Shown here: piece after piece, positions 1,229 to 5,448 of the stretch
Position numbering within the stretch: position 1 is the first letter of the stretch
Layout: each line of letters starts with the position of its first letter
Source: Sulfurovum sp.
GTDB lineage: Bacteria > Campylobacterota > Campylobacteria > Campylobacterales > Sulfurovaceae
Assembly (NCBI GenBank): GCA_026193735.1
Contig: JAPHUJ010000170.1
Location: forward strand, 1-7,351
DNA: 7,351 nt
Reading direction: 5' to 3'
Translations under genes and position numbers: made by a program
The notes under the pieces: model-generated
What the model was told of the DNA's origin: nothing
What the model saw: the letters and a program-made list of their open reading frames with translations, nothing else
Database searches by the model: none

Positions 1229-2047
1229 ATGAAAGAGAACAAAAATACAGAAAAAGTGCAAATTTGGGTGAAGAAAGAAACTTTAGAATACGAGAAGGAA
1301 TTGGCAAAACTTCAAGTTGAACTTCTGAAATTTCAAAACCATGTGAAAGATAAAGGTCTTAAAATTTTAATGATCTTTGAAGGTCGAGATGCTGCTGGAA
1401 AAGGTGGTACGATCAAAAGAATTACAGAACACCTAAATCCAAGGGGTGCCAGAGTAGTTGCTCTTGAAAAGCCTAGTGATAAAGAGTTGTCACAGTGGTA
1501 CTTTCAAAGATATGCAGAACACCTTCCAAGTGCTGGTGAAATTGTTCTATTTGATAGAAGTTGGTATAATAGAGCAATGGTTGAACCTGTGATGGGATTT
1601 TGTACAGAGAGGCAACAGGTCAGATTTTTAAAAGATGCACCAGAGTTTGAAAAGATGATTACAGATGATGATATCCAGATATTTAAATTTTATTTTTCAG
1701 TATCTAAGGATGAGCAGGCAAGAAGATTTAAAGCTAGAGAGACAGATCCTCTCAGGCAGTATAAGCTCTCTCCAGTAGATAAAGAGTCACAAAAATTATG
1801 GGATGAATACTCACTTGCTAAATTTATGATGCTTAGTGCTACTCATACAGAAGTAACTCCTTGGACCATTGTTAAAAGTGACAATAAGAAAAAAGCCAGG
1901 ATAAATTGTATAAAACATATTTTGAATTTTGTGGATTATCCAGATAAGATCAAGAAAAAAGATATTCAAGTAGATTGCGATATCATTGTATATGGAAGAG
2001 ATGAAGCCATAGCAATGGAAAAAAGATTTAAGTTCTCACTTAAATAA
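1229..2047 (+). CDS. ppk2: Polyphosphate kinase 2 (PPK2), second of a tandem pair
   Basis: A 272-residue PPK2 with all catalytic motifs intact: Walker A GRDAAGKGG (52-60), Walker B region FDRSWYNRA (108-116), and lid RRFKARETDPLRQYKL (165-180). It aligns without large gaps to the upstream copy from about residue 29 to the C-terminus, with roughly half of the core residues identical by eye. The two differ in the N-terminal extension (shorter here), in the segment after Walker A, and around residues 126-150, which are acidic here (TDDDIQ). An AGGGG ribosome site (1219-1223) precedes the ATG by 5 bases. Because neither copy is decayed, the pair probably divides labour by nucleotide (ADP versus GDP, or mono- versus diphosphate) or forms mixed oligomers. 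That division is inference. Confidence 0.95.
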   Translation: MKENKNTEKVQIWVKKETLEYEKELAKLQVELLKFQNHVKDKGLKILMIFEGRDAAGKGGTIKRITEHLNPRGARVVALEKPSDKELSQWYFQRYAEHLPSAGEIVLFDRSWYNRAMVEPVMGFCTERQQVRFLKDAPEFEKMITDDDIQIFKFYFSVSKDEQARRFKARETDPLRQYKLSPVDKESQKLWDEYSLAKFMMLSATHTEVTPWTIVKSDNKKKARINCIKHILNFVDYPDKIKKKDIQVDCDIIVYGRDEAIAMEKRFKFSLK

Positions 2048-3340: not shown

Positions 3341-4687
3341 TTATAGACTATCCGGTATCTTATGGGATAGTTCTGTATCACCTATAATTGAAGAAAGTTC
3401 ATCACTTTCTACTATTTCCTGCTCTATCAGTTTAAGTGCCAAGGTTTCTATCTTTTCCCAATATGCATCTACTAATTTTTCTGTATCATGTTTTGCTGCA
3501 TGAATCCAATGTAAAAATCTTTTTTCAATTTGTTGTTCTAAAAAATAGTTGTCTAAAGAACCAATCGCACTTAAATTAATATATCCCAATTCTTTATCCA
3601 TTCCTAAAGTTGTAATAGCTGCATAAATTTGCAACGAGGCTTGAGAAAGATCATTTTGCGCACCGCTATCCATCTGTTCACTTCCAATTTTTTTGACATT
3701 TGCCACACGTCCGGAAAGTAATACACAAACATCATGATACAAATCTTTTTTTGTCACATTGGATAACTGATCTTCATCATTGTAAGAAACAAAACCGAGC
3801 GTCTTACTTCGTGGTGCAATAGTGACTTGTTCAATTTTAATATGAGGTAAAAGCAAAACAGAAAGTACGGCATGTGCTGCTTCGTGATAGGCAGTCATTT
3901 TTAGTTCTTTTTCAAGATTCTCAACCATCTTTTTTTCAACTTTATGTCCGTATTTGATGATATTGATCTGTTCGATGAGTATCTCTTCAGTAATAAGCTC
4001 TTTATCCTGTTCAACCACAGAGAGTGCTGCCATGCGTCCAACTCTTTCAAGTTCCAAGGCACTCATTCCGGCAATATAACGTACAATGCGTTCAACATCT
4101 ATTTTTGTATCATGTGGCTTTTGCATGATCTTTTCTATAAAGAACCTTCTGGCATCTTTATCTAATTCTAAAACTTCTAATAAAAAATCAAGTTTCTGTG
4201 GTGAAGTTAATACAGGATCAATTTCATCAAGACTTTCAGCTGTAGCAACAGTAAATACCATCTCATTAGTTGATTCTAGTACTTTTGCAATATCTGAAAA
4301 TGAAACATTTGTAATAGCACCTTGCATAATGCCTTTGATGTCAATATCTTCCAGAATGACCATACAGGGTGCATGTTTGGAAGCAATTTCATACACTTCT
4401 TTAATATAGTCAAGTTCAAAAAGTTTAGATCCGGATATCTCAAGATAAGATAGACCTGCTTCTTTTGTGAAAGCCTTTGCAAGCATTTTTTTACCAACGC
4501 TAACAGGACCATAGATGAGTAACCCTTTAGGAATAGCCGTATCGAACCGTTCAAGTATTTCCGGATTTTTAACGATCCTGATGATCCCTTTAAGACGTTC
4601 TTTGATCTGTTTATGACCGACAACATCATCAAAGCCAATTTTAGACTTCTTTAATTTTGGTATATCTTTTGTTTTTTTCGTTGCCAT
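3341..4687 (-). CDS. Soluble FtsH-like protein: degenerate AAA module fused to an intact M41 zinc peptidase
   Basis: A 448-residue relative of the membrane protease FtsH. FtsH normally has about 600-650 residues with two N-terminal membrane helices; here the protein starts directly before the AAA domain with a Lys-rich stretch (1-17) and no membrane segment. The AAA domain (about 18-250) is recognisable (DDVVGHKQIKERL at 20-32) but damaged: Walker A is GPVSVGKK (60-67), with Lys where Thr/Ser should hold Mg; Walker B ends LEDID instead of IDEID; the FVG pore loop is deleted after ISGSKLFE; and the RPGRFD arginine-finger segment is replaced by TSPQKLD (161-167). The peptidase domain (about 262-435) keeps HEAAH (268-272) and the third zinc ligand D346 in SGAQNDL, 78 residues after H268 as in E. 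coli FtsH. A GGT ribosome site precedes the ATG by 6 bases. I infer a peptidase that does not unfold substrates by ATP hydrolysis; its substrate is unknown. It is divergent from upp and upstream of the antiporter. Confidence 0.9.
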   Translation of the reverse strand: MATKKTKDIPKLKKSKIGFDDVVGHKQIKERLKGIIRIVKNPEILERFDTAIPKGLLIYGPVSVGKKMLAKAFTKEAGLSYLEISGSKLFELDYIKEVYEIASKHAPCMVILEDIDIKGIMQGAITNVSFSDIAKVLESTNEMVFTVATAESLDEIDPVLTSPQKLDFLLEVLELDKDARRFFIEKIMQKPHDTKIDVERIVRYIAGMSALELERVGRMAALSVVEQDKELITEEILIEQINIIKYGHKVEKKMVENLEKELKMTAYHEAAHAVLSVLLLPHIKIEQVTIAPRSKTLGFVSYNDEDQLSNVTKKDLYHDVCVLLSGRVANVKKIGSEQMDSGAQNDLSQASLQIYAAITTLGMDKELGYINLSAIGSLDNYFLEQQIEKRFLHWIHAAKHDTEKLVDAYWEKIETLALKLIEQEIVESDELSSIIGDTELSHKIPDSL

Positions 4688-4716: not shown

Positions 4717-4770
4717 TATTATCCTAATTCTAGCATAACTCTTTCTTCAATACTTACCTAAAAAGATCGT

Positions 4771-4824: not shown

Positions 4825-5448
4825 ATGATTCATGAACTATCTAACCCTGTTGCTAAAACTTTGTTAAACCATTTGAGAGAAATACAATCAGATGCATTAC
4901 GTTTTCGGCATATTATTCAAGAGCTTACACGGCTATTGGTTTATGAGGCACTAAAGACGGAAACAGTAGAAGATCAAACCATTACAACTTGGCAAGGAGA
5001 ACAAACATTTGGATTTATCAAAGAAGAAGATCTTATTTTTGTCACTATTTTACGCGCCGGTCTGCCTATGATAGAGTCTGTCACTGCACTTTTTCCAAAA
5101 GCTTCTTCAGGATTTTTGGCTATGAAACGTGATGAAAAAACACATCAGAGTGTGCTTTACTATGATCGTATACCTGAATGTAAAGACAAAACAGTTATTA
5201 TCGTTGATCCTATGGTAGCAACAGCCGGTTCACTATGTGATGCCATATCTGTCATTCAAGCTAAATTACCCAAAAAGATCATCTCTCTCAATATTATTGG
5301 ATCCCCTGAAGGAATGGTCATACTGGAACAAAAACACCCAAATATTGAAGTATTTATTGCACAGATAGATGAAAAACTTAATGAAAATAAGTATATTATC
5401 CCAGGATTGGGAGATGCCGGTGATAGATCTTACAATACAGAAAAATGA
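4825..5448 (+). CDS. upp: Uracil phosphoribosyltransferase
   Basis: A 207-residue cytoplasmic enzyme (E. coli Upp has 208) that makes UMP and pyrophosphate from uracil and PRPP in pyrimidine salvage. Seen: LRAGLPMIE (76-84), where Upp proteins bind the phosphates; the PRPP loop IVDPMVATAGS (126-136); and the uracil-binding C-terminal block YIIPGLGDAGDR (190-201), all in the family order and at the family spacing. The PRPP loop reads DPMVATAGS where most bacterial enzymes have DPMLATGGS, so one loop Gly is Ala. That is a mild divergence and not evidence of inactivity. It has its own promoter and a clear ribosome site, is divergent from the FtsH-like gene, and is followed by a long AT-rich gap, so it looks monocistronic. 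Confidence 0.95.
   Translation: MIHELSNPVAKTLLNHLREIQSDALRFRHIIQELTRLLVYEALKTETVEDQTITTWQGEQTFGFIKEEDLIFVTILRAGLPMIESVTALFPKASSGFLAMKRDEKTHQSVLYYDRIPECKDKTVIIVDPMVATAGSLCDAISVIQAKLPKKIISLNIIGSPEGMVILEQKHPNIEVFIAQIDEKLNENKYIIPGLGDAGDRSYNTEK

Follow-up and report, generated by a model that had tools for sequence, protein, structure and literature searches.

FtsH, m-AAA and i-AAA proteases (MEROPS family M41, TIGR01241) are the nearest described systems to the protein considered here, and enzymes of this type are described as membrane-anchored and ATP-dependent in the excerpts of two papers on which we draw (PMC9020784; PMC8943139). Known inactive FtsH relatives, the plant FtsHi proteins, are protease-dead in the account given by part of a third paper (PMC8197885). 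In the Lon family, LonC of Meiothermus taiwanensis has a defective AAA-like domain and shows no ATPase activity. Its hexamer binds six nucleotides, and it needs no ATP to degrade unfolded proteins, while well-folded ones are not degraded, as the cited sections of PMC3391209 report. Here we describe an M41-like gene on a contig of 7,351 nucleotides from Sulfurovum sp. (JAPHUJ010000170.1, assembly GCA_026193735.1), the whole of which is called the window. The gene encodes a protein of 448 residues, the short protein, in which the zinc motif is complete, most signatures of an AAA motor are gone and no membrane anchor is predicted; it therefore likely trims unfolded proteins or peptides without energy. 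We read it as an M41 peptidase for such substrates that would act independently of ATP hydrolysis, its GxxxxGK motif being kept while the FVG pore loop, Walker B, sensor-1 and arginine-finger residues are lost, and we give this reading a probability of roughly 0.55.

ATPase motifs, zinc site and conservation

The gene was found in 33 of the 78 genomes of the genus (rows at at least 57% identity), and a sample of 397 genomes of the phylum held one further copy, 66% identical, in a sister genus (G317). Residues were counted in 33 genome rows: 32 come from the genus, where one of the 33 carriers was set aside, and the other is G317. The genome left out, G008, is 99% complete and has its ortholog (L022/L061) split over two overlapping frames, by recent loss or assembly error. 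A wider set of 137 rows joined 17 loci to the 120 closest database proteins of 492 at E ≤ 0.001, which are 80–91% identical and nearly all 448 residues long. Because this set holds near copies, being the closest rows of the 492, the genome rows are the better count. Canonical FtsH was represented by 40 proteins picked by the patterns G....GKT and HE.GH, so that Thr67 and HEXGH are present there by construction and the other positions are free. The features of the window protein are as follows.

3341..4687, minus strand: M41-like gene, 448 residues, AAA and M41 domains, no predicted membrane segment (open reading frame and profile evidence)
4175..4522, minus strand: AAA core, residues 56–171 (PF00004, 47 bits, over cut-off)
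4487..4510, minus strand: Walker A GPVSVGKK, residues 60–67; GxxxxGK invariant, residue 67 Lys here and mostly Ser elsewhere
4409..4414, minus strand: point of the pore loop 1 deletion, residues 92/93, where the 6-residue FVG loop of FtsH is missing
4340..4354, minus strand: Walker B LEDID, residues 112–116, Asp-Glu order swapped
4268..4276, minus strand: EST, residues 138–140, in place of the FtsH DGF motif (sequence comparison)
4235..4237, minus strand: E151 at the sensor-1 Asn position (ortholog rows)
4187..4204, minus strand: SPQKLD, residues 162–167, in place of the arginine-finger segment RPGRFD (ortholog rows)
3386..3913, minus strand: Peptidase_M41 domain, residues 259–434 (PF01434)
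3872..3886, minus strand: zinc site HEAAH, residues 268–272, a conserved HEXXH
3650..3652, minus strand: D346 at the third zinc-ligand position, a conserved Asp

A sequence-only reading of the window had proposed an FtsH relative with every AAA motif broken and a complete zinc site, and this picture is partly borne out. Lys67, LEDID, HEAAH and D346 lie in the window protein where it had placed them. The P-loop, however, is not broken: G60, G65 and K66 are invariant in all 32 readable genome rows and in all 137 wider rows. Nor is Lys67 a family trait, since this position is Ser, a normal Mg ligand, in 21 of the 32 readable genome rows (Gly in 6, Lys in 3, Ala in 2) and in 122 of the 137 wider rows, where Lys occurs in three, the window protein among them. 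Conservation of GxxxxGK, with residue 67 usually Ser, argues that the short family has retained nucleotide binding despite the lost hydrolysis and finger residues.

When the check proposed with that reading was run, the Walker B and finger changes, unlike Lys67, proved to be shared by the orthologs. The Glu-Asp order of Walker B is found in 32 of 32 readable genome rows and 137 of 137 wider rows. Loss of the arginine finger holds as well, although the register needs correction: the counterpart of RPGRFD is S162-PQKLD167, which begins one residue further on than the TSPQKLD first written. The first finger position is Ala in 21, Ser in 11 and Gly in 1 of the 33 genome rows, the second (K165) is Lys in 32 and Thr in 1, and neither is Arg in any of them; in the wider set K165 is kept in 136 of 137 rows. 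Several further changes had gone unrecorded, and so had the tandem-AAA relatives described below and the fact that no transmembrane segment is predicted. The FVG loop is missing from all 17 short rows examined and present in 35 of 40 canonical FtsHs. At the sensor-1 position, 30 of 33 genome rows have Glu and none has Asn, and the DGF motif, which in FtsH has a role in subunit signalling, is replaced. Of the 123 positions that reach at least 95% conservation across the set of 40 canonical proteins, 18 of the 26 in M41 but 28 of the 97 in AAA are kept by the short family (Fisher p = 4e-4).

The peptidase half is preserved, as the sequence-only reading had it. PF01434 scores 101.9 bits, above its curated cut-off of 29.9. 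HEXXH is present in 33 of 33 genome rows, so that its loss in most orthologs, which would have told against that reading, is not seen, and in all 137 wider rows; D346, which we take to be the downstream zinc ligand, is kept in 32 of 32 readable genome rows and again in all 137. H268 and D346 are 78 residues apart, a spacing that had been likened to that of E. coli FtsH; it equals that of the genome's own housekeeping FtsH (446 to 524), and the matching distance is 77 in two other Campylobacterota FtsHs. In the relevant passages of two papers the third zinc ligand is named as a glutamic acid (PMC8197885; PMC12067869).

Hydropathy was compared in two short proteins, two FtsHs and, from the relatives treated below, two tandem-AAA proteins and one Sulfurovum-long protein. 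It predicts no membrane segment in the window protein, whose maximum over 19 residues is 1.46 against 2.62 and 2.98 in the two FtsHs, and none in either tandem protein. AAA homology begins about 15 residues from the N-terminus, and an N-terminal anchor of the FtsH type is accordingly not predicted. The monomer model gives a fold of the FtsH type. By profile score and zinc motif the protein belongs to peptidase family M41. Its score against the TIGR01241 FtsH equivalog (190.7 bits) is well under the cut-off of 600, identity to canonical FtsH is 26–29%, and the Walker B Asp-Glu, RPGR fingers and FVG loop of FtsH are all absent from the short family.

Both halves of the short protein are under purifying selection. 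The two pairs with the least saturation gave ratios of nonsynonymous to synonymous substitution rates (dN/dS) of 0.053 and 0.058, dS being saturated in many of the others, and dN in the AAA half was not above that in the M41 half in 28 of 36 pairs.

Tandem-AAA relatives and a mirror-image paralog

Beyond its orthologs, the closest relatives of the short protein are proteins of about 770–950 residues with an extra N-terminal Clp-like AAA half ahead of an FtsH-like AAA and an M41 domain. They are 33–52% identical to the window protein and occur in Nitratiruptor, Nitrosophilus and other Campylobacterota, and also in Desulfobacterales, Desulfobulbaceae and related groups; their database names are "AAA family ATPase" and "ATP-dependent Zn protease". 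Leaving Sulfurovum-long aside, PF07724 was over its cut-off in three of four scanned examples and just under it in the fourth (L059). In this family (P0121–P0199, L057–L060 and L086–L095) a Gly often stands in place of the catalytic Glu of Walker B (LDGID).

Among 82 tandem rows, from which P0200 and P0201 (shorter than 600 residues) were excluded, HEXXH is universal and the FVG loop is found in none. The final Thr of Walker A is kept in 78 and the second finger Arg in 80. By contrast, 50 no longer have the catalytic Glu of Walker B and 73 have lost the Arg at the first finger position; Asp-Glu, the two finger Arg and the sensor Asn are found together in only 7. Altered Walker B motifs also occur in many of the N-terminal AAA halves.

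In the tree, the short proteins form one clade (100/100) within the tandem family and apart from canonical FtsH. The tandem proteins beside this clade already carry GKK and LEDID (G231, G205, G354 and G234), and another tandem neighbour, P0189, has GKA, LEQID and PGKID. Support for the fork uniting the short clade with the LEDID tandems is moderate (93/81, below the line at which the tool awards a star). On this tree the short protein does not come from decay of a housekeeping FtsH but is where a lineage of tandem-AAA M41 proteins ends, and "FtsH relative" in the sense of an altered housekeeping enzyme has to be given up. The simplest story would be that a tandem protein first had its motor disabled and only later lost its N-terminal half. 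A split gene, with the Clp-like half encoded on its own, was also considered; none was seen among the matches listed in genomes with the short gene only, and matches listed to this half outside the long proteins were mostly open reading frames of ClpA/ClpB size or frames cut at contig ends.

A second tandem-AAA M41 paralog, Sulfurovum-long, is carried by 20 of the 78 Sulfurovum genomes (L065–L084, L112) and forms a separate clade (100/100). In all 20 the HEXXH motif is lost (YEAGR, REAAH, KEAAH and others), and in all 20 the second AAA half keeps Walker A and B, the sensor Asn and both finger Arg (RPGR or RAGR). Of the conserved FtsH positions it retains 53 of 97 in AAA and 9 of 26 in M41, a contrast that is not significant (p = 0.08); with this and the absence of the FVG loop from all 19 rows examined, the statement that its ATPase is kept rests on motifs only. 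Short and long genes occur together in 9 of 78 genomes where about 8.5 are expected (short alone in 24, long alone in 11, neither in 34; Fisher p = 0.80). Since this is the level of chance, the two proteins are probably not obligate partners.

Taken with the tandem family, these two proteins suggest a broader proposal, which we put forward tentatively and at somewhat less than even odds. An anchorless FtsH/M41 branch in Campylobacterota and Desulfobacterota may have separated ATPase and protease, one line turning its AAA ring into a motorless, nucleotide-binding cage or gate that encloses an active zinc peptidase, with the window gene as its most reduced form, and the other, in the same genus, keeping the ATPase and losing the peptidase.

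Proposed function, alternatives and genomic setting

We suggest that the short protein would assemble into an FtsH-like ring, probably a hexamer, whose AAA part no longer hydrolyses nucleotide or pulls on substrate. This AAA ring may bind nucleotide, or may once have done so, as a structural cofactor or for gating, with no power strokes. Substrates, whether peptides or unfolded chains, would diffuse in to the zinc sites. In this proposal the peptidase activity, the binding of nucleotide and the oligomeric state are all inferences. Several points weigh against it. HEXXH in a sequence is not proof of an active peptidase, some slow hydrolysis could persist with Glu and Asp swapped, and the motor could come from a partner protein. 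Proteolysis by canonical FtsH is coupled to ATP, so that an M41 peptidase working alone is not established. The gene neighbours vary and yield no function.

A partner motor is the most serious of the alternatives, though we consider it unlikely. In such a mixed complex the short protein would be a peptidase subunit fed by an active AAA protein, be it a membrane FtsH, a Clp ATPase or Sulfurovum-long. The host draft genome (1.70 Mb, 78% complete) does encode one canonical FtsH in full (C163) and another FtsH paralog that is truncated where its contig ends (C306), Sulfurovum-long is complementary in keeping its ATPase motifs and lacking HEXXH in 20 of 20 cases, and heterocomplexes of FtsH family members are described elsewhere, in part of PMC9020784. 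Against it, the short protein is distant from canonical FtsH (26–29% identity), its co-occurrence with Sulfurovum-long is not above chance, the long gene is missing from 24 genomes that carry the short one, and the genomes with the short gene only showed no free-standing Clp-like half among the matches listed. No recurrent AAA neighbour was recognised by eye in 17 neighbourhoods, whose genes were not searched singly. A nucleotide-gated switch, opened or closed by binding ATP or ADP without hydrolysis, was the second option of the sequence-only reading and is somewhat less probable still. It would explain why GxxxxGK is invariant and Ser67 common when the hydrolysis and finger residues are gone, and why D21 and G24 are near-invariant in the wider set, within the segment that in AAA proteins lies next to the adenine. 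Residue 67 varies, however (S, G, K, A), and Mg-nucleotide chemistry is thus not tightly held; moreover, LonC binds nucleotide and yet degrades unfolded substrates independently of ATP, according to the cited part of PMC3391209.

The high conservation of E113 and D114 (137 of 137) and of K165 (136 of 137), together with the intact GxxxxGK, could also be taken to mean that this is an unusual but working ATPase protease, with the swapped Walker B Asp as base and K165 standing in for the finger. We regard this as quite improbable for a protein in which pore loop 1 is deleted, the sensor-1 Asn and DGF are gone, no finger Arg remains and residue 67 may be Gly or Lys. The chance that the gene is decaying or an assembly artefact is negligible. 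The split ortholog of G008 would fit such a history, but the matched frame has no internal stop in any of the other 32 genus genomes with the gene, three of which have it cut by contig ends (G009, G079 and G085), the 120 closest database proteins are 80–91% identical and nearly all of one length, and dN/dS is about 0.05–0.06 in the pairs with the least saturation. As the altered motifs are common to the orthologs and held by selection, sequencing error and local decay are rejected. A peptidase on an AAA scaffold that would not hydrolyse nucleotide, which the sequence-only reading had also favoured, remains the best reading, at the odds given at the outset.

As for the genomic setting, the host genome has a C-terminal M41 fragment at a contig end (C98) and, with C163 and C306, two or three further M41 loci besides the window gene. 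In the window, the uracil phosphoribosyltransferase (UPRTase) gene upp (4825–5448, plus strand) lies divergently beside the M41-like gene. It is directly adjacent and divergent in 9 of 17 ortholog neighbourhoods and at most three genes away in 13, and these neighbourhoods show no other constant neighbour. Two neighbouring genes for PPK2-family polyphosphate kinases lie at 305–1210 and 1229–2047 (plus strand; PF03976, 291 and 330 bits). The segment 5637–7200 (plus strand) encodes a molybdopterin oxidoreductase (PF00174) followed by a protein of 103 residues that has a CxxCH-like motif but matches no Pfam family, by eye a pair of the sulfite-oxidase type. At four other loci (L048, L049, L051 and L056) the next gene starts 9–12 bases downstream of the ortholog and is, by eye, what we take to be a TrmH/SpoU-like RNA methyltransferase; it is followed by a third gene that is presumably CHAD-domain-like. 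At L053 only the TrmH/SpoU-like gene of this pair is found.

Upstream of the gene, one possible element was noted by eye:

4727..4737, minus strand: possible extended -10 element, TATGCTAGAAT

The pattern TATGNTARAAT was seen by eye in 9 of 16 upstream stretches, whereas the promoter scan did not list the TATGCTAGAAT element. CIRCE and HAIR heat-shock operators and sigma-54 sites, searched with patterns that we assume to be the usual ones, were not found in the 16 stretches of up to 170 bases. Rfam gave no match above gathering score within the window. An anti-phage role was considered and rejected, as the matches were of the generic AAA kind: the NCBIfam equivalog for the anti-phage ATPase IetA scored 42.5 bits against a cut-off of 510, and a PADLOC match to IetA (35 bits, residues 20–79) is read as a generic P-loop match.

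Comparison with known AAA proteases

The short protein resembles FtsH, m-AAA and i-AAA in the order AAA-lid-M41, the predicted fold, HEXXH and the third-ligand Asp, and differs from them in having no predicted membrane segment, FVG loop, normal Walker B, finger or sensor-1 Asn. Its parent family, the tandem AAA_2 + AAA + M41 proteins, likewise lacks FVG and keeps HEXXH, and is set apart by the extra N-terminal Clp-like AAA half. With plant FtsHi, as described in the available part of PMC8197885, it has in common that an FtsH relative has lost one of two activities. The pattern is nonetheless reversed, as the sequence-only reading had proposed: FtsHi is membrane-bound and without HEXXH, whereas the short protein keeps HEXXH and has lost the ATPase motifs. 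Sulfurovum-long, with HEXXH lost, is the closer bacterial parallel to FtsHi.

If the broader proposal made above is correct, energy-free peptidases would have arisen from AAA proteases more than once, as LonC in the Lon family and as the short protein in that of FtsH. An anchorless M41 protein that lacks a motor would let one ask what an AAA ring contributes apart from pulling on substrate, and to what extent an M41 ring can function in the absence of ATP. The family offers natural intermediates, from full ATPase motifs through loss of the catalytic Glu, loss of the finger and a swapped Walker B to loss of the extra AAA half, and the same genus supplies the mirror-image mutant in Sulfurovum-long. 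No motorless or soluble M41 protein was found among the matches listed in open-licence PubMed Central (PMC) literature. What is new is the conserved combination of an intact zinc site, disabled ATPase motifs and no predicted anchor; the fold and the peptidase family were already known.

The design itself has a precedent in LonC, which speaks against the earlier suggestion of a different kind of enzyme. On the evidence of the cited part of PMC3391209, LonC too has a degenerate Walker B, and its Walker A-like GPPSLGKHE is close to the GPVSVGKKM of the window protein. Like LonC, the short family has a P-loop and lacks the hydrolysis residues in its AAA domain, and in both the protease domain is kept, ATP-independent degradation having been assayed in LonC and being proposed for the window protein. 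The protease domains, a Lon peptidase and a zinc peptidase of family M41, are unrelated, and the resemblance is one of analogy between families, not of kinship. In this sense the short protein is best read as a probable FtsH-family counterpart of LonC.
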